Assembly (NCBI GenBank): GCA_027487775.1
Contig: JAIYCY010000023.1
Location: 62,001 to 126,000 of the forward strand
DNA length: 64,000 nucleotides
Direction: 5' to 3'
DNA from: Planctomycetaceae bacterium
Lineage (GTDB): Bacteria > Planctomycetota > Phycisphaerae > Tepidisphaerales > Tepidisphaeraceae
Under the pieces are notes generated by a model. That model saw nothing but the letters and a program-made list of their open reading frames with translations. It was not told the DNA's origin and did not search any database. Position numbers and translations under genes: made by a program. Below are positions 1,641 to 60,773 of the stretch, one piece after another (position 1 is the stretch's first letter; every line of letters begins with the position of its first letter).

Positions 1641-4600
1641 TAGATGATGGGTTCGTTGCGGCTGGGGTTGAGCGGTTCGGCGCGATGTAGTTTGGGTGAG
1701 GAGGCATCGCGGATGAAGGAGACGGTGGCGCGAGTGGCCGAGAAAAACGACGTGGTGGCGGGTGGGCTGCCGAGAGCGCGTGCGAAGTCGGCGGGGAGGG
1801 ATTGGCCGTAGGCCCTTGCGAGGATCACGAGGTCGCTGAATCCGACGAGGCCGTCGGATGAGTAGTCGAAGTTTCCTTGGGAGTAGGTTCGTCCGGATTG
1901 GTTGAAGTTGCGGGAGAGCGCGAGCAGGTCATTGAAATCGACGCGTCGATCGCGATTGGCATCGCCGCGGAGGATGTGGAAGTTTTGGGGGTCCAGTCGG
2001 GTGAAGAGCCGGTAGTTCGCGTCGGGCAGGTTGATCAGGTCGAGGACGGCCTGGGTGCCGGTGGCGTTCCATCTCAGTTCGAAGGGGGCTTCGGGAACGA
2101 ACTTAAACGTCGCGAGATCGGTCAGCGAGTAGTCGAAGCGGGAGAAGTCCGCGGTCGCGTCGCCGTTGAAGTTGAAGACGATTGCCTGGCGGGTTTCGAA
2201 CTCGAAGGTTGCGCTGGTGAGTGCTGCGAAGGTGCGTTGGACTTCGACGGCGCCGATATCGACCGGCTCGCTGCGAAACTGGCCGCGCTGGTCGAAGAAG
2301 TTGAGGCTCACTCCGTTGTTGATCGCGGGGCTGCCGGATAGCGGGAGGATGGTGAGCGTGGGCCCGCCGTTGTCGGCGAGCGGGCCGATGCGTGCGTCGG
2401 CGGCGGAGAGGTTGAGGAGGTTGTTGGATGACATCGCGGTGAGCGGGCCGGCGACGTCGAAGCCGGTGTTGCCTGCGGCAAGGACGTTGCGGAGCGTGGC
2501 GGTGGCGCCGGTGATGGCGATGCCGCCGTTGCGGTTGTAGGCGATGGTGACGAATTGCAGGTCGGCTGTGCCGCCCGAGAGTGCGAGCGCGTTTCGGCCG
2601 TTGTCGGCGAAGGTGCTGTTGACCACGCTCAGGTTGCCGGTGCTGAGCAGCGCGCCGCCTTCGTTGCCGGCGGCAGATCCAACCGTGTTGGCGTTGAAGG
2701 TGGAGGCGTTGATGGAGGCGCTGCCGAAAAGCCGCAATGCGCCGCCGCTCGCGCTCGCCGAGTTGTTGGTGAAGGTCGAGTTCACGATGGAAACCGCGCC
2801 TGCGGCCCGGATGGCCCCGCCATCGCCGGAGGAGTTGCCGGTGAAGGTGGCGTTGCTGATCGAGACCGAACCGTCGGCGTAGATCGCGCCGCCGACGCTC
2901 GTGCTGGTGTTGCTCGTGAAGGTGGCGTTGACGATGTTGGCGGTGGCGCTTGCGACGAGGTAGATCGCGCCACCGGCATCGGCGCGGTGGTTGGAGAATC
3001 GGACATTGGTGAGTTTGAGCGGGCCGCCGGCGAGGATCGCGCCGCCGAGGCCGAAGAGGGTGCCCGCGACGTCGCCGCCGGTGAGGTCGATGTTCTTGAG
3101 ATTGAAAGTGCCGCCCGCGTGGGCGAAGAGGCGGCGTTTGGTGCCCGTGGCGTTGGCGAGCGTGAGCTGACGGTCCTGCCCGTCAATGGTGAGGTTGCCG
3201 GCGACGGTCAACGCGGTGGCGTCGGCCGGGCCGGTGTAACCGTTGGCGAGGGTGATCGTCTGCCCGGCGAGGCTGGGCGCGAAGGTGATCGTGCGTGTGA
3301 ACGGGTCGGCCTGTGCGTAACGAACCGCTTCGCGCAGGCTTGTCCCGGTGCCGGTTGCGGGGTTGATCGTGCCATTGTCTTCGTCGGCGGCGGTGGTGAC
3401 GACGAGGGGGATGAGTTCGAATGCGCCGACGTCGGGCGTGGCATCGCGCGGGGCGCCGCGCTGGTCGGTTGTGATGCCGGGGACGACCGCTGCCGTGTTG
3501 AGCGCCGGCGAGCCGGGGAGCAACTCCATCGTCCGCACCGTCCCACCGTTGTCGCTGATCGGGGCGAGCTTCGGGTCGGCGTTGATGATGCCCGGCCCGG
3601 TCACTCCACTTTGGACGATGTTCACGCCCAGCCCCGTGATGTTCCCGGATGTGCTCCCGACGATGCTGTTCTGCAGCGTCACTGCCCCTTCCGCAAACAA
3701 ATCTGAGCCTATGTCTGTTGCGTTCCCGTAGATCGAGGAGTGAACGATGGTGGCCGTCGAACCACCTCCGACGACAACACCAGTAAAACCACTTGTGGTT
3801 ACCGTTGAGTTACGGAGCGTCAGTGTGTTGGGAGTCGAACCCGAACTTGACAAGCCGAAGACGGTAATGGTTTGTTGATTGTTTAGTTCGAACGTACTGC
3901 CGTCGATTAGCAGCGTCGCGTTGAAGGCGAAGGCCATGATGACGGCACTGCCGATCGGACTGATGATGGCGGGCGATGACGCGCTGTTGGACGTGAACGT
4001 TGAACCGCTGATGACGACATCACTGGCGACGTTGATCACGCCTCCGCCGAACCCGGCGTTGTTTCGGTCGAATGTCGAGCCGACAATCGTCGCGGTGGAA
4101 TTGGCGGCAAGGATGCCACCGCCGCTATAGAGGCTGACGTTGTCCGGGAACGCGGTGCCCGTGACGTTTAGCGTCGAGCCTCCGATGGCTGCAATGCCCG
4201 CGCCGCCGTTGACGGCGCTTCCACCGCCGATGATGCGTTCGGTGCGGTTGGCGCTGAAGGTCGAGTCGGCGACGGTGACGACCGATCCGACGGCCCAGAT
4301 GCCGCCCCCGCCGTTGGCCAGCTGGGCGCCGGTGCCTGCCGATCCGTCGACGCGGTTGGTGCTGAAGGTGCTGCGGGTGGCCGTGACCGGCGCGCTGAGG
4401 GTGAAGATGCCGGCGCCGACCTGGCCGGCGGTGTTGCCTGAGATGACCGAGTCGATGAGCGTCACGGGCCCGCTGCTGGCGATCGCGCCGCCTTTGACGC
4501 CGCGGCTGTTGGTGATCGCCGAGTTGAGCAGCGTGAGCGAGCCGGAGTTGATGATCGCGCCGCCGTCGGCGGTCGTGCTGGCGTTGCCGTTGGTCAGCGT

Positions 4601-52944: not shown

Positions 52945-53021
52945 GATTTTTTTTGTGGATTTGGTTCAATGTCGGCTCGGGGCTTGATCTTGTGGGTGGT
53001 GGTGGTATGTTTCTGGGCCAC

Positions 53022-53211: not shown

Positions 53212-53685
53212 TTACCCTCGCCGTCTCGGCCTATCACCCAGCGGTCGATTCACTCGCCGAAATCCGCACAGCGATTCCAGCATCGCCCGCAGTTCTGACG
53301 GGTCGTACGATTTCCTAATACCAATCCGAACCAAGCGGATTCCGACCGCCTCCAGCAACTCGTTCACAAACTCGTCCCGTCGCCGTCGACTCTCTTTCTC
53401 GTGACTCCTGTCATCCAGTTCGATGACCGCGACGATCGCCGATGAGTGCTGCTTCACCAAAACAAAATCGACGTGCTTTTGCGAAATCCGCCGCAGCGAA
53501 ATCCGGTTCTCGAATCGGCAGCTCACGATGTCGGCCAGCCGAACTTTGCACATCAGCGTCAATCCTTCCGGCATAACCTCCACAAGCGATGTCGCGAGCC
53601 TTAGCTCGGCAATCGAGAGCAGATAGCGCCGACGCGAATACACCGCCTGGTAGTCAATCGGCCAGTTCGAACCGTCTCGCGTCAT
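53212..53685 (-). CDS. DUF2726-like protein (restriction-nuclease-fold candidate)
   Basis: A 157-aa protein. The middle segment ISLRRISQKHVDFVLVKQ ... VAVIELDDRSHEK, with the following helix and the 'VGIRLVRI' strand, matches the DUF2726 pattern. That family is grouped with the PD-(D/E)XK fold (D in HVDF, E-x-D in VIELDD). The biological role is unknown. Its ATG directly follows the TGA of the 53686-53934 frame on the same strand, suggesting co-translation. Confidence 0.75.
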   Translation of the reverse strand: MTRDGSNWPIDYQAVYSRRRYLLSIAELRLATSLVEVMPEGLTLMCKVRLADIVSCRFENRISLRRISQKHVDFVLVKQHSSAIVAVIELDDRSHEKESRRRRDEFVNELLEAVGIRLVRIGIRKSYDPSELRAMLESLCGFRRVNRPLGDRPRRRG

Positions 53686-54013: not shown

Positions 54014-54283
54014 ATGGCTTCATTAAACATTTCCATGCCGGACGAACTGCGTGAATTCGTGGAGAAGCGGACCAAAGAGAGCCACTTCGCCACGCCGACG
54101 GAGTACATCCGTGCCTTGGTGCGTGAGGACCAGAAGCGTGCCGAGCAGGACAAGCTCGAACGACTTCTCCTGGACGGCCTGGACAGCGGCAAGCCCATCT
54201 CGGTGAAGGACCTCGACGGCTATTTCAAACAGAAAAAGGACGCCCTGCTGGCCCGCACGAAGTCAAAGGCGACCCGGAAATGA
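54014..54283 (+). CDS. ParD/CopG-type antitoxin
   Basis: An 89-aa protein with the ribbon-helix-helix N-terminus LNISMPDELREFVEKR ... TPTEYIRALVRED of ParD-like antitoxins. The C-terminal charged helix (about residues 50-85) would bind the toxin. Its stop overlaps the toxin start (ATGA, 54280-54283), the usual translational coupling. Expected to bind the inverted repeat upstream. Confidence 0.92.
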   Translation: MASLNISMPDELREFVEKRTKESHFATPTEYIRALVREDQKRAEQDKLERLLLDGLDSGKPISVKDLDGYFKQKKDALLARTKSKATRK

Positions 54284-54606
54284 CCTTCGGCCTGCGAATC
54301 CTTCCCGTCGCCGATGCCGACGTTGATGACCTGGCGGCCTACATCGCTGAAGACAGCATCGAACAGGCATTGCGGTTTTTCGATGCCGTGCAAGCCACCC
54401 TTGGATTGATTCTGGAGGCACCCAAGCGATGGCCGCTCTATGGGTTCACAAACACAAGACTGCGTGACCTGCGAAAACGGTCTGTGCTGGACTTCCCCAA
54501 TCACTTGGTGTTTTACCGAGTCGATGTCGACATGGTGGAGGTCGTCCGCGTCTTGCACGGCGCGCGTGACCTGCCTGCGGTTTTTGCCGACATGCCAGGA
54601 GACTGA
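54280..54606 (+). CDS. ParE/RelE-superfamily toxin
   Basis: A 108-aa toxin. ADADVDDLAAYIAEDSIEQALRFFDAV (helical hairpin) and the strand set LRKRSVLDFPNHLVFYRVD, VEVVRVLHGARDLPAVF match ParE. ParE toxins poison gyrase, while RelE relatives cleave mRNA; the ParD-type antitoxin favours ParE. The C-terminal motif VLHGARD is typical. Confidence 0.92.
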   Translation: MTFGLRILPVADADVDDLAAYIAEDSIEQALRFFDAVQATLGLILEAPKRWPLYGFTNTRLRDLRKRSVLDFPNHLVFYRVDVDMVEVVRVLHGARDLPAVFADMPGD

Positions 54607-55359
54607 CCGGGCGGCCGATACTTTGAGCTAAAGCACGGCATGGCGGGCGATAAAATAAGCATCGAAACTGCCGGCCAAAACGGCCCGGGTCGGTGACTTG
54701 CCCAACAGAGTCGGCCCCCACCAGCAGGGAACGACCACAAGTTGCCCCCCTTCTTGCCGCACTGAAGAAAAGTCTGCGTTCGTGCGGCGGCGAGGTGTCC
54801 AGCCGACGCTGGGGCAAGAAGATGAGAAGGGGTTTGATTCAGCCCACGGGGCGGCCTTTACGCTTTGCAGTGAGCCAAAAAAAATGCCGACCGGATGAAG
54901 TGGAGGGGGGGGCCACTTCGGGGATTCCGGTCGACATCAAAGAGGATATCGCAATCGTCGCCGATGTCACACAAATTTCCGATGACCGCGACAGCCTGGC
55001 CGGATTTGAGTAGCCCTGGCACCAGTGGCATTCTGGCTGGGTCGGGCCGTAAGGCCTGTTGTTGTCACATCCAGCACAATCTGGGTCGGCGTCAACGAGA
55101 CTTGAACACCTGCACGTGGAGTACCGTGCCTACCAAGCATGGGAAAGCCGATGGACGCGAGGGGTTTCCCTTCGCATACCGCCATCACGCAGGTGTCACA
55201 CGTAGAGCTGGATGCCAGTCATCCTGGCCCGTCCAGTTCGAGAGAGGCTCGTCGGCCTAAACCTTGGTCACCAACCAAGCCAATTCCGACGTTCTATCTC
55301 ATTGGTTTAGTTTCCCCACATCGCGGGCCAATCCGCCGCGTTGAAACGGGGCGACCGAG
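54607..55359. other. 750-bp region without a convincing gene
   Basis: Short open frames occur on both strands but none has a ribosome site, a recognised family or good codon pattern. A run of eight G residues lies near 54905. The sequence from about 55300 already shows short hairpins and may be the start of the structured RNA. Decayed mobile DNA is a possibility. Confidence 0.45.
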
Positions 55360-56604
55360 AAAGACTCGCCATCGTTGGCGAGCCGTAAACATCGAAGCGG
55401 GTGGGGTTGCAGTGATGCAGCCGAATCCCGCCCACGGGGCGAGGTCCGCTATTGCGGATCGCGATGACGTGGGGTGACCGGGGAGCCGGCGTGCAGTGAT
55501 GCACGTCGCCGGGTCGAAAGTGAGGGCTTGGCCTTCACGAGAATCGACCCGGTGTTCCGCCGACAAAAGCGGACAGTGAAAAGCTCAACCGGTAACCGCC
55601 CGAGAGAAGCCGCGTGCTTCAAGGGCGTTCACCACAGTATGGCAAGGGACGGAGCCGAATCGGGATTGGAGTGACATGAGCGACGTGTGTCTCCGCGTGT
55701 GTTAACAGCGGACGACCCACAAGGGGTAAGGCTAGCTTCTCTTTTCGTAGCCTGAAACCGATAGTGCCACCGGGCATTTTCGTGAACTCCGAAAACGGCG
55801 AGAGCCGCGAGTACGAACGCTCGTCTCCGGCCCCCTCGGGGGCATGTACCGACGTCTGTTGCCAAGTGTCAAAACGACACACTCAGCGATGTTTACTAAT
55901 CGGGTAAAGCGTAGAGCTTCCGGACTGGTAATCCGGTGCGTGACATTTCGGTCACGTGTTTCAAACGCTCGACGCTGACAAGAGTGTCGCAAGAGCCAAA
56001 GGCTCAGGGGTCACAGACCCCGGTAGAACGGTCGAGAGACCGCCGAACAATGGCAAGGCAGTCATTGACGGTCTGCGAAGTAACGGGTGGTGCCGACTTC
56101 GATGCAGGAACGAAAGCGACGACGTGTTTCTTCAAGTCTCGTGATTGATGCGCTGCAAGGCGAGAGCGGGGTATACGACCCCGTCTCTTGGCTGGCAGCA
56201 TTCCGAGGGGAAGACCTTCAGCGGTCAAAGCGGAAGAGTCCGAGAGGACGATTGCGCTTTGATGGCGGAAATTGACGACACACCCGCGAGGTGTGTCCAG
56301 GGTTTTCCTCGTGGGTAGCAGCGGTTGTGCGCGCTACCTGTATGAAGTCAACGCTGCGGTGCAGTCGGAAAAGGGCAATGCGCAGGCCAATCTGGGCTTG
56401 CCATTGCTCGCTGCACCGCAGCGTGGGCGTGAAGCGGGCGCTTCACGCGTGCGGGTCTGCAAGCTCAGGCGCGAGCCTGAACGGAGGTTTCCATTCGAAG
56501 GTTCTGACGAACGGCTTTTCGGGAGATTTGTGCCGCCAACGCGAAAACAAACTCCCACCCTTCGACGAGTCGTCGAGGCGGAGTGGCATGAAGTCGTGGG
56601 AGTG
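55360..56604 (+). ncRNA. Putative giant structured RNA preceding a 251-aa protein
   Basis: About 1.2 kb with a dense run of perfect stems. Examples: 55365-55382, 55405-55422 (GTGA loop), 55444-55459, 55490-55505 (GTGA loop), 55509-55552 enclosing 55520-55538, 55729-55753, 55777-55795, 55830-55843, 55866-55880, 55993-56005, 56007-56021, 56029-56042 (GAGA loop), 56161-56187, 56225-56262 enclosing a GAGA-loop stem at 56238-56249, and 56277-56297 (8 bp). Further ones are 56351-56364 with 56411-56424 (14 bp), 56427-56448 (9 bp), 56465-56480 (GCGA loop) and 56521-56556. Five GNRA loops cap perfect stems. The strand is inferred from the GNRA loops and the downstream gene. No reverse transcriptase or HNH gene accompanies it. 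Family unknown to me. Confidence 0.55.
55884..55977 (+). other. tRNA-Thr(GGT)-like fold inside the structured RNA
   Basis: CAGCG (55884-55888) and CGCTG (55973-55977) form an acceptor-like stem. TTTAC/GTAAA (55892-55896/55904-55908) with a GG-containing loop mimics the D arm. CCGGA-CTGGTAA-TCCGG (55920-55936) is a textbook anticodon arm reading GGT. CGTGAC/GTCACG (55939-55944/55951-55956) looks like a long variable arm, and TTTCAAA a T loop. An extra hairpin (55907-55919) and the weak T stem argue against a working tRNA. Confidence 0.4.
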
Positions 56605-56610
56605 ATGGTG

Positions 56611-57366
56611 ATGGGCGTTGATGTCGGAGTGGGTGTCGAGAGAATGGTGGGAACAGCGAGCGACTTCAACCGGTTTACGGGCGAACAAGCGGGCCGGCAT
56701 CGAAGCCCGGCGGTCGCGAGCGTCGAGGCGTTCGTGCAATACCTCGCGAGCAACCTGATTCGTCACGGCTACTGGTATCACTTCGTCGGCCACGTCCCGC
56801 CGCACAAAGACCCAGCCGCGGTCGACAGAAAGCTCGCCGAGCGATACCAAGCCAACCTCGACAAGTTCACGCGATCTCGACGGAAGAAAAAAGGCTTAGC
56901 CAACGTCGCCTATGTCCGACACGAGCGGACGTTTGTGCTGCTAACGACCGAAGGCGACCACGCCATCTTCGACGAGCACCCGATGCTCGACCTGCGTCGG
57001 CGACCCATTCGACTCTTTGGCTACAGCATCGGAGCGGGACGTGGCCACGACGGCAAATTTCACGCCAGCGTCCGCATCGGCGACGAGGCTTTCGCCAAGT
57101 TGGAAAGCTACTTCCTTGACATCGCCACCCATCGCTCGGCCCAGACCCTGGCCGATGAACTCAGAAAAATCCGCTTCGTCCCCTACGCCCGTGTCCGGCG
57201 GCAATTCCTGAAACTCCTCCGCCTGGTCAACGAACGGCGAGAGATGGCAGGATACGAACCCGTCCCGCTTTCGGCGTTGACGCTTCGCCGCAGCATCGTA
57301 ACGGTCTTCGAGCAGTGCCGAAAGCGGACAGACTTGGGTTCCGAAGCACAGCGAGGTCTGGGCTGA
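56611..57366 (+). CDS. Protein partner of the structured RNA (unknown family)
   Basis: A 251-aa protein. I choose the ATG at 56611, which has GGGAG 8 nt upstream; the same frame is open back to 56272 but those codons coincide with perfect RNA stems. Notable segments: SVEAFVQYLASNLIRHGYWYHFVGHVPPHKDP split around residue 60, a basic FTRSRRKKKGLANVAYVRH, VLLTTEGDHAIFDEHP, RRRPIRLFGYSIGAGRG, and a C-terminal helical VRRQFLKLLRLVNERREMAGYEPVPLSALTLRRSIVTVFEQ. There are several histidines, a basic patch and no transmembrane segment. I have the impression that similar proteins recur in planctomycete genomes but cannot name the family. An RNA-binding or nuclease role is conjecture. Confidence 0.75.
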   Translation: MGVDVGVGVERMVGTASDFNRFTGEQAGRHRSPAVASVEAFVQYLASNLIRHGYWYHFVGHVPPHKDPAAVDRKLAERYQANLDKFTRSRRKKKGLANVAYVRHERTFVLLTTEGDHAIFDEHPMLDLRRRPIRLFGYSIGAGRGHDGKFHASVRIGDEAFAKLESYFLDIATHRSAQTLADELRKIRFVPYARVRRQFLKLLRLVNERREMAGYEPVPLSALTLRRSIVTVFEQCRKRTDLGSEAQRGLG

Positions 57367-57988: not shown

Positions 57989-58095
57989 ACAACTTGGCTC
58001 CTCAGGCGTCGATGGACGTTCTGATCTGTGCGGTCTTGGCACGTTTGCGTGCTTTGGCCCAGGGCTTTCGTTGTTTGGTTCATGGAGATATTTCG

Positions 58096-59469
58096 ATGAA
58101 AACTTGGATTGCAGGGGCGACAACGATTGCCCTGGCGGCACTGACGGGCTGTTCAACCATGCCGGTCATTGATTCGCCCAAAGAGGCCGCGGAGATCACC
58201 GCCGTTGGCGACCCGTTCGTCTTTAAGGTGGAAGGTGAGCCGCTGGACGTCGAGGCAAAGCCTGATGGCGTCCTGACCGCGAGCGAAGCCGTCAAGCGGT
58301 GCCTTGCTCACAGTGCCTCGATTCAGCAGGCACTAGCCCGCGTCAGGATTGCCCAGGCGGAAGCCGGTCAGACCCGGCTATTGCCGAACCCCGTTCTTTC
58401 GCTATCGCTGCGATTCCCCGAGGCGGGCAAGACGATCATCGATGCGGGGCTGACGGCTGAACTGCTTTCGCTCTTCCAGCGTCCTGGGCGGATCGACGCG
58501 GCAGACAATCGACTGCGGGCAGCCGCATCCGAACTGCTGGTCGTTGTGCTCGATGAGCTTTCGACCGTCGAAGAGCAGTATGCAACCGTTCAGTCGTTGG
58601 ACGCGGAGCAGGTGGTGCTCAATTCGCGTCGGGCATTGGTGGAACAACTCGCCGAGCTTGCACGCTCACGCCTGAGGGCGGGTGAAGGCTCGCAGCTCGA
58701 CGTGCTAACAGCCGAGAGCGAACTGGCGTCGCTTGATGCAGAGCTACGCGAGAAAAGTGCGGCCGGACGCGTTGCCCGAATCGGACTCGCAAGGCTCATC
58801 GGCACCCCCAGTTCGCATTTCACTTGGGTCTTGTCGCCCTGGGAGTCGCCGATCGTCGCCACCCGTACGGAATCGGAATGGGTAAGCACCGCATTGCAAC
58901 GTCGTCCGGAGATTCAGGCCGTGACGTGGGAACTGACCGCCCTGGGCGATGAAGTGCGGCTCACCAAGCTGTCTGCACTGGATGGCAGCGATGTCGGAGT
59001 CGCGGCAGAACGTGATGGTGGCTGGTCGGTCGGCCCCGCTGTCAACATCGGCCTCCCAGTCTTCGATTTTGGCCAAGGCAAGAAAGAGATCGCGGATGCC
59101 CGCCGAATCGAGATGCGTCACAAATTGACGGAGGTTCGTCGTCGCGTCGTCGAACAGACCCGCACGGCCTTGGAAGAATTGCGTTCCACGCAGGACACAC
59201 TTGCCGAAGTCCGAAAGACGCTTCTGCCCTTACAGGAAAAGCGGCTCTCTCAAGCTCGGTCGACCTATCGAGCCGGCATCGCAGACATCACCGCAGTGCG
59301 GCTTGCCGAGCAGGACTTGCAGGGTACCCGAGCGAAATTGATTGAGCTTGAACTTCGAGTGTCCCTCGCTCGGGTCAAACTAGAACGTGCAGTCGGGGGA
59401 CGGGGTGTCGCCACAGCCCCACAAGCCGCAAGCAGCACCCAACCCACAACCCAAGGAAACAAACAATGA
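58096..59469 (+). CDS. czcC: Outer-membrane efflux lipoprotein (CzcC/TolC family)
   Basis: A 457-aa outer-membrane channel subunit of a tripartite RND metal pump. GGAGA lies 7 nt before the ATG. The lipobox is ALTGCS (C about 18). Two OEP repeats follow: about residues 55-240 (EAVKRCLAHSASIQQALARVRIAQAEAGQTRLLPNP ... RSRLRAGEGSQLDVLTAESEL) and about 260-440 (RRPEIQAVTWELTALGDEVRL ... YRAGIADITAVRLAEQDL). Overlaps czcB by 4 nt (ATGA). Confidence 0.9.
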   Translation: MKTWIAGATTIALAALTGCSTMPVIDSPKEAAEITAVGDPFVFKVEGEPLDVEAKPDGVLTASEAVKRCLAHSASIQQALARVRIAQAEAGQTRLLPNPVLSLSLRFPEAGKTIIDAGLTAELLSLFQRPGRIDAADNRLRAAASELLVVVLDELSTVEEQYATVQSLDAEQVVLNSRRALVEQLAELARSRLRAGEGSQLDVLTAESELASLDAELREKSAAGRVARIGLARLIGTPSSHFTWVLSPWESPIVATRTESEWVSTALQRRPEIQAVTWELTALGDEVRLTKLSALDGSDVGVAAERDGGWSVGPAVNIGLPVFDFGQGKKEIADARRIEMRHKLTEVRRRVVEQTRTALEELRSTQDTLAEVRKTLLPLQEKRLSQARSTYRAGIADITAVRLAEQDLQGTRAKLIELELRVSLARVKLERAVGGRGVATAPQAASSTQPTTQGNKQ

Positions 59470-60773
59470 ATACACGAAAACTCTTACTTGTCGCGGTAAT
59501 CGCTTCGCTGTTCCTTCGAGTCGCCTACGCGGAGGACGGTCACGACCATGCCGAGAAGCCGGCTGCGGGGGCACAGGCGGTTGATGACCACGCCGCCGAT
59601 GCTCACGACGAGCATGATGATCACGGTCATGGTGCAACTGGCGGCGAGCACGTCGATGAAGTGAAGCTCACACCAGCCGCCATCCGCGACAACGGCATTC
59701 GCGTTGCCACGGCGACGACACAGCCCCTGGTCACCAGTCTCGTCGCACCCGCCCGCGTTTCCTTCAACCTAGACGCGATGGCTCACGTCGGGTCGGTTGT
59801 AAAGGGACGCGTGGTCGAACTGAAGGCTCGTGTTGGTGATTCGGTGAAGCGAGGCGACGAGCTTCTCGTCGTCGAGAGTCCTGAACTGGGTCAAGCTCAG
59901 AGCGAATACCTGCGACGTCGGCAAGCGGTCGTCGTCGCCGAACTCAACGTCGAGCCGACCAAGCAAGCCTACGAGCGAGCGAAGGGACTTTTCGAAGAAT
60001 CTCAGGGCATCTCTCTGGGTGAAGTGCAGAAGCGGGAAGCGGAGTACCGAGCGGCAACCGCCAACGTGCTGACTGCCAAAGCCGAGATGTCGGCGGCGGA
60101 GAACACGCTGCACCTGTTGGGCATCACTCAAGCCGATGTCGCGAAGCTCGCAGAAACGAGCGAGATCAACCCGCGTTTCTCGATTCGTGCCCCGATTTCT
60201 GGCCAGGTGGTCGAACGCGAAGTGACGCTTGGCGAACTTGTTTCGCCCGAGAAGGAGAAGCTTCTCGTGCTTGCCGACGTGTCCAATTACTGGGTGTTGG
60301 CAGACGTTCCCGAAGCACGGCTGAGTGAAGTGGGGGTAGGGTCTCGGGCCAGGATTGAAGTGACGGCACTTCGCAACGACTCGTTCGAGGGCACGGTCTC
60401 GCTCGTCTCGTCAACGGTCGACGCACAAACCCGTTCGGCACGTCTGCGAATCGAAGTATCCAATGGGCATACCTCGCTCAAGCCGGGGATGTTCGCCCGG
60501 GCAACCGTGTGGACGAATGCCGTGGACGGTGCCGAACCTGTACTAGCCATTCCCGATGAGTCCGTACAGACCGTGGAGGGAGCATCGAGCGTATTCGTGC
60601 CGGTGCCGGGCGAAGAGAACACGTTCAAACGCGTGGTGGTGAAGGTGGGCAAATCGGTCGGCGGCATGTTGCCCGTCTATGAGGGCCTTAAGCCGGGTGA
60701 TGAGTTGGTCGTCTCTGGCTCGTTCATCCTGAAAGCAGAACTTGGAAAGAGCGAGGCAAGCCATGAACACTAA
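59466..60773 (+). CDS. czcB: Periplasmic adaptor subunit of heavy-metal RND efflux (CzcB/CusB family)
   Basis: A 435-aa membrane-fusion protein. A signal peptide (about residues 1-20) is followed by a histidine/aspartate-rich stretch (GHDHAEKP ... HDEHDDHGHG, about 23-60) able to bind metal ions. The barrel-sandwich hybrid (VGSVVKGRVVELKARVGDSVKRGDELLVVESPEL) follows, then a coiled coil (about 140-210), beta-barrel (SIRAPISGQVVEREVTLGELV) and C-terminal domain. The gene start overlaps czcC and the stop overlaps the lipoprotein gene by 11 nt. Confidence 0.92.
   Translation: MNTRKLLLVAVIASLFLRVAYAEDGHDHAEKPAAGAQAVDDHAADAHDEHDDHGHGATGGEHVDEVKLTPAAIRDNGIRVATATTQPLVTSLVAPARVSFNLDAMAHVGSVVKGRVVELKARVGDSVKRGDELLVVESPELGQAQSEYLRRRQAVVVAELNVEPTKQAYERAKGLFEESQGISLGEVQKREAEYRAATANVLTAKAEMSAAENTLHLLGITQADVAKLAETSEINPRFSIRAPISGQVVEREVTLGELVSPEKEKLLVLADVSNYWVLADVPEARLSEVGVGSRARIEVTALRNDSFEGTVSLVSSTVDAQTRSARLRIEVSNGHTSLKPGMFARATVWTNAVDGAEPVLAIPDESVQTVEGASSVFVPVPGEENTFKRVVVKVGKSVGGMLPVYEGLKPGDELVVSGSFILKAELGKSEASHEH

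Follow-up and report, generated by a model that had tools for sequence, protein, structure and literature searches.

Circularly permuted (CP) group II introns are a rare class of ribozymes described in 2021, in which the domains (D) follow one another in the order D5-D6-D1-D2-D3-D4 and the splice motifs are NU and GGGCG (Roth et al. 2021, PMC8637638). These RNAs, also termed T-large RNAs, back-splice in vitro, with circles or linkers of 15–86 nt; the role of the class is unknown and an intron-encoded protein has never been found for it (Roth et al. 2021, PMC8637638). The same study linked them to AcpG, a protein of unknown function without known relatives, whose orientation varies, both in Thermus and in further phyla (Roth et al. 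2021, PMC8637638). CP group II ribozymes have no class of their own in Rfam.

In canonical group II introns, D4a is the maturase-binding element. Splicing proteins with a reverse transcriptase (RT) fold but without RT catalysis include the RT-like domain of Prp8 and the plastid protein MatK.

The locus analysed here lies in a window of 64,000 nt, the whole stretch of DNA under study, from a Planctomycetaceae bacterium. A first-pass annotation of this window had proposed an undescribed structured RNA with a partner protein, perhaps mobile. The large structured RNA, its conserved partner protein, its relation to introns and its patchy distribution have all held up. At a probability of roughly 75%, we regard the locus as a CP group II ribozyme that carries, at its 3' end, a degenerate intron-encoded protein of its own.

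A circularly permuted group II ribozyme

The layout of the locus is given in Table 1. Its RNA is a CP group II intron ribozyme, as demonstrated by its class, domain order, splice motifs and covariation. With the CP group II RNAs of Roth et al. it shares the domain order, D5, D6 with its branch-point A, the GGGCG and NU motifs, a short exon between D6 and D1, an exon stem-loop and an adjoining AcpG-type gene. It differs from them in the longer RNA (a core of ~0.93 kb plus a linker of ~0.4 kb) and in the position of the protein, which in almost every locus lies 3' of the RNA and on its strand, whereas AcpG was reported by these authors in any orientation.

Table 1. Features of the locus, in positions of the 64,000-nt window (Planctomycetaceae bacterium, GCA_027487775.1, contig JAIYCY010000023.1); all parts are on the + strand
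Feature	Position	Strand	Evidence or remark
5' stems (P1/P2-like region)	55129..55203	+	conserved, covarying helices in the 46-copy alignment
D4-like closing helix, upstream strand	55198-55203	+	pairs with 56122-56127
Group II domain 5	55205..55239	+	model R1 match, RF00029 matches in homologues, compensatory changes
Group II domain 6	55242..55302	+	D6 end motif; covarying stems
Predicted branch-point A	55296	+	bulged in D6; 3' splice site 7 nt away, after 55302
46-nt "exon", predicted to be excised as circular RNA	55303..55348	+	between D6 end and GGGCG
5' splice site GGGCG and domain 1	55349..55903	+	GGGCG in all aligned copies; many covarying helices
Domain 2	55908..55976	+	10-bp covarying helix 55908-55917/55967-55976; named by position
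Domain 3	55988..56127	+	conserved GGGUGGUGCCG...ACGAAAGC..ACGUG, covarying helices; named by position; includes downstream D4-like strand 56122-56127
Long stem between core and ORF	56220..56267	+	19-bp, covarying
Pre-ORF hairpin TTGTGCC...ACAA, candidate protein-binding site	56523..56557 (approx.)	+	conserved across copies
AcpG-family protein (wide sense, by profile), 251 aa	56611..57366	+	GGGAG 8 nt before ATG; conserved core from residue ~30

Rfam searches of the window RNA, at the gathering threshold and at E-values up to 10, gave only chance matches, a tRNA aside, and the models for OLE, GOLLD, ROOL, HEARO and group I introns matched neither the window nor any homologous or plasmid locus that was scanned. 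However, six of the eight homologous copies scanned matched RF00029, the D5-D6 model, with 44–51 bits against a threshold of 40; these matches have the same orientation as the conserved unit and lie at its 5' end. The window copy itself is divergent: it lacks an Rfam match and its D5-like hairpin (55205–55239) has a loop of 5 nt in place of a GNRA loop, with the catalytic AGC triad at 55206–55208 and the 2-nt bulge present. The D5-D6 core, which the first-pass annotation had not found and which Rfam missed in the window, is present, and the group II match of the homologues removes the claim that the RNA is undescribed. The lack of an Rfam match in the window itself would speak for an RNA class unrelated to group II introns, which is scarcely credible in view of the RF00029 scores and of the fit of D5, D6, branch-point A, splice motifs and domain order to CP group II.

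The end of D6 (TTCTATCYSAT) lies within 160 nt ahead of GGGCG (GGGCGAC) in 46 of 56 copies, and GGGCG occupies the splice position in every aligned copy; exon or linker lengths among the copies are about 16–107 nt. In the window, the motifs are AU (55301–55302) and GGGCG (55349–55353), separated by the linker of 46 nt. A covariance model of D5-D6-exon-5' splice site (R1) matches the window at 55201–55363 with 103.5 bits, the window sequence being a member of its training set, and recovers the CP RNA of Thermus thermophilus plasmid pTT8 (E = 2.9e-4), which is divergent from TTHC007 as published.

Covariation was strong throughout and far above shuffles. An unguided consensus fold, computed from 46 copies, contains 275 pairs, 93.1% of them standard (73.2% when shuffled), and 2357 compensatory cells against 667 in shuffled alignments (maximum 723). 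The covariation score of D5-D6 is 0.533 versus 0.139 shuffled (0/500 shuffles). Domain 1 is closed by 55355–55358/55900–55903. For the EBS1-IBS1 pairing (candidate loop GCUUCU...UUC with exon GAA), covariation was not above shuffles, the loop being too conserved; the small hairpin at the 3' end of the exon (CGT-TGAA-ACG) is moderately above shuffles only.

Local stability was assessed by comparing 200-nt segments with dinucleotide shuffles. The dense stems first noticed were reproduced over most of 55201–56400, with z of -4.6 (segment starting at 55201), -7.2 (55401), -2.9 (55801), -4.6 (56001) and -3.7 (56201); the segment at 55601, inside the RNA, is an exception (z +0.5). The GNRA loops reported (GTGA, GAGA, GCGA) are visible in the sequence. 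Nearby protein-coding segments are mostly at z -1 to +0.5; exceptions are that at 53001 (z -3.9), which contains a tRNA, and 58001–58200, the start of an efflux gene with a very stable local fold (z -4.8).

The boundaries of the RNA also needed revision. The start had been set at 55360, about 150 nt too late, as D5-D6 and the exon occupy 55201–55348 and conserved stems begin at ~55129. At the other end, the RNA had been drawn up to the ribosome site of the 251-aa gene; the ORF does follow, but the catalytic core ends at ~56127 and is succeeded by a stem and a hairpin. The stem has 19 consensus pairs, all (19/19) with compensatory changes, 16 of which are kept in the window. The hairpin (TTGTGCC and a complementary ACAA arm), ~40–90 nt upstream of the protein start, was found in 61 of 135 copies (31/56 and 30/79) as against 4 of 2120 background windows. 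Because its position resembles that of D4a in canonical introns, it is the first candidate for a site of protein binding. The frame from 56272 shows no conservation as protein, with conservation of the protein family starting at ~56695.

The helix 55198–55203/56122–56127 (99% standard pairs and compensatory changes in five of six pairs in the 46-copy alignment) joins the bases just 5' of D5 to those just 3' of D3, the usual place of D4. For this reason the permuted RNA looks like an ordinary intron opened inside D4. Since the ORF comes after the downstream strand of D4, the element keeps the cyclic order D1-D2-D3-D4-ORF-D5-D6 that ordinary introns with an ORF have. We infer the ancestry of the element from this geometry.

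The adjoining protein

The 251-aa protein is under purifying selection (dN/dS 0.10–0.37). Searches of Pfam, NCBIfam, PADLOC and PDB sequences with it returned nothing convincing, including no Pfam RT match, and a plain HMM search with its family did not recover AcpG or TTHC007. By profile-profile comparison, the family aligns collinearly with eight Thermus AcpG proteins (hhalign E 1e-7, probability 94, 156 columns), with a score of 56.7 against at most 24.4 in 40 shuffled decoys; comparison of single sequences with TTHC007 was suggestive only, and family profiles were needed. On this profile evidence the protein is shown to be a distant relative of AcpG and therefore belongs to that family in a wide sense. 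Like AcpG/TTHC007 of the Thermus plasmid pTT8, it adjoins a CP group II RNA; in contrast, Thermus acpG is transcribed divergently from the RNA, usually downstream of a CopG-like gene. In six Thermus loci, a CopG/ribbon-helix-helix gene usually precedes acpG, and a conserved gene of ~117 codons is often found 3' of it.

The protein has the predicted palm and thumb fold of a group II RT/maturase. In a single AlphaFold model (mean pLDDT 85.9, core above 90), group II intron RTs take the first nine places among the structural matches (Z 8.2–9.9), followed by DRT, Prp8 (Z 7.7) and retron RTs. The leading matches are 8h2h_D (Z 9.9, 198 residues, 5.7 Å) and 6me0_C (Z 9.2, 178 residues, 3.7 Å), with 8t2r_D at Z 9.1 (178 residues, 3.6 Å); overlays have an rmsd of 3.6–5.7 Å. 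Foldseek by itself was weaker (retron RT, E 3e-3; group II RT, E 0.02). A profile of 27 group II RTs of the class aligned with the family at E 0.03 (hhalign), not significant alone, with a score of 23.8 against 14.7 ± 2.2 in 60 column-shuffled decoys (maximum 20.5). This weak alignment places YVRHERTFVLL on the RT motif YADD (AYVRHERTFVLL on HIVNYADDFVIC, motif RT5) and puts PIRLFGYSIG on FDFLGYTFG (RT7). The AcpG alignment itself showed no link to RTs.

The position of the first catalytic aspartate is occupied by R in 83 of 112 sequences and by D in four; the second is mostly F or T. As the YxDD aspartates are gone, the protein is not an active RT, and the claim is limited to descent and a maturase-like working. 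The early statement that no RT is present accordingly stands for an active enzyme and gives way as regards the predicted fold. The maturase reading is favoured because fold, motif register and gene position agree, each of them being weak alone. Together they support an RT/maturase ancestry, and the protein, as modelled, looks like a shrunken maturase without RT activity. It resembles group II intron RT/maturases (8h2h, 6me0, 6ar1) in the predicted palm-to-thumb fold and the RT5 and RT7 registers, and its ORF comes after the D4-like strand, in the place expected of an intron-encoded protein. It differs from them in size (~220 aa versus 400–600) and in the absence of an endonuclease domain; RT0-2 and most of RT4 and RT6 are not evident, and YADD is replaced by (H/Y/F)xRx. 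Like Prp8 and MatK, it would be an RT-fold splicing protein that has lost catalysis; Prp8 is a giant spliceosomal protein, whereas the present one is small, bacterial and encoded in cis with its ribozyme.

An AcpG that is no maturase, but an independent RNA-binding or regulatory protein beside a CP group II ribozyme, its fold merely resembling RT palm and thumb, would agree with the weak RT similarity at the sequence level and with the missing homology and variable orientation of AcpG in Roth et al. (PMC8637638). We consider this rather unlikely, given that the top structural matches are all group II RTs, that the profile alignment falls on RT5 and RT7 and that the ORF is in the place expected for the intron-encoded protein of a D4-opened intron.

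Distribution, linkage and mobility

The protein is present in six of 61 close genomes, and a profile search found it in 51 of the 397 genomes of the class. All-against-all comparison of the ~56 copies retrieved revealed ~1.2–2 kb of conserved sequence ahead of the protein, sharply bounded on its 5' side, and conservation stops with the protein; RNA and protein therefore form one conserved unit of ~2.2 kb. An independent collection contributed 80 loci with the protein gene, most of them from Planctomycetota. Single or few contigs each are labelled Acidobacteria, Verrucomicrobia, Nitrospira, Nitrospinaceae, Thermoleophilia, Calditrichota, Omnitrophota, Hydrogenedentes and Deltaproteobacteria, labels that need care because most are MAGs. 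The protein is also encoded on plasmids of Leptolyngbya, Calothrix, Planococcus and one planctomycete, and genomes carry up to four copies. The planctomycete, cyanobacterial and other lineages found here are absent from the main text of Roth et al. 2021 (PMC8637638).

Using R1 on the independent collection, we detected the D5-D6-splice-site module in 57 of the 64 loci with enough upstream DNA, always on the strand of the protein and 1.1–3.0 kb upstream of it; the remaining seven comprise four with a 5'-truncated RNA and three with the protein alone. A class-wide R1 scan yielded 69 strong matches, with the protein in ~56 of ~62 assessable ones (hand count); about six (at least five) with enough downstream sequence are without it. 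R1 matches below 50 bits, many of them at contig ends, were treated as ordinary group II introns. The dependence between RNA and protein is not absolute, since these RNA-only loci and the three protein-only loci exist.

Several individual loci show departures from the common layout. Five (L012, L120, L130, L159 and L162) combine the protein with the D1-D3 part and are 5'-truncated, without D5-D6. A locus on a Calothrix plasmid has two CP group II modules (1626–1761 and 3777–3903) and one protein gene. One contig contains two inverted, 100% identical stretches of ~5.6 kb, each carrying the element, which are either a recent duplication or an assembly artefact. In four loci from different genomes, a cupin-like gene (named by eye) occupies the same place 5' of the element; this constant place is syntenic inheritance.

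We found no second DNA copy of the element in its own genome (94.7% complete) and no group II maturase domain (PF08388) there, despite the CP intron. A search for recombinase machinery among the genes common to the neighbourhoods, such as the cupin-like gene and unnamed ORFs, revealed no transposase. IMG/VR and phage collections gave no relatives, and a viral origin hence lacks support. The loss of the RT motif, the single copy, the lack of a canonical group II RT in the maturase-domain search of this genome and the syntenic copies at several loci make autonomous mobility unlikely. Nevertheless, the patchy spread and the plasmids point to horizontal movement by some route.

A selfish element, the RNA-protein pair being copied with an RT acting in trans, would account for the patchy distribution, the multiple copies in some genomes, the plasmid copies in several phyla and the 5'-truncated copies, and would be compatible with the reading preferred here. 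It is nonetheless unlikely: the element is single in its own genome, where the maturase-domain search found no canonical group II RT, its RT motif is dead, synteny is conserved in some groups and back-splicing does not release the complete element (Roth et al. 2021, PMC8637638).

Proposed working and origin

Taking the locus as a CP group II ribozyme with a degenerate maturase, we propose that the transcript would adopt a group II core whose ends, just before D5 and just after D3, would pair as a D4-like stem. By analogy with the relatives spliced in vitro by Roth et al., the window copy would then splice: the branch-point A of D6 would attack the downstream 5' splice site, before 55349, and the freed exon end would attack the 3' splice site, after 55302. 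The expected products are an RNA circle of 46 nt and a 2'-5' branched RNA still bearing the protein reading frame. The protein may bind the RNA of its own transcript, at the hairpin or the D4 stem near its start, and may stabilize the ribozyme as a cis-encoded folding cofactor, in the manner of maturases and Prp8.

As to origin, with somewhat less assurance than for the nature of the locus, we think it probable that AcpG-type proteins are the intron-encoded protein of CP group II introns: D4 would have opened just behind the maturase gene, and the maturase would then have shrunk to a palm-thumb splicing cofactor in cis, devoid of catalysis, and would be a small counterpart of Prp8 in bacteria. 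Neither the RNA class nor AcpG as such is new. New are the constant same-strand linkage within this lineage and the broader distribution, together with the proposed view of AcpG-type proteins as dead mini-maturases and the predicted D4-opening geometry with the ORF in the position of an intron-encoded protein. A literature search covering few subscription journals or preprints found no paper reporting AcpG as a dead maturase.

Should AcpG be a dead maturase, the permuted intron would count as a true ribonucleoprotein, and a protein of previously unknown function would be explained. The permutation would have a simple origin, domain 4 having broken behind the ORF, and bacteria would offer a small natural model of how a retroelement RT turns into a pure splicing factor of the Prp8 type. 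The loci found here add Planctomycetota, Cyanobacteria and, on the strength of MAG contigs, several more phyla to the class, and supply natural ribozymes for the production of RNA circles.

In the window, a ParDE-type toxin-antitoxin pair (54014–54606) immediately precedes the RNA in the same orientation; its ParE has a Pfam match (E 9e-14), and its ParD-type antitoxin is named by position and a ParD-like look, with no Pfam match. On the 3' side, the element is followed by genes for an outer-membrane efflux protein and a CusB/HlyD-like membrane-fusion protein (57994–60773). At 53212–53685, on the opposite (-) strand, there is a gene for a DUF2726 protein with weak similarity to a REase-like family.
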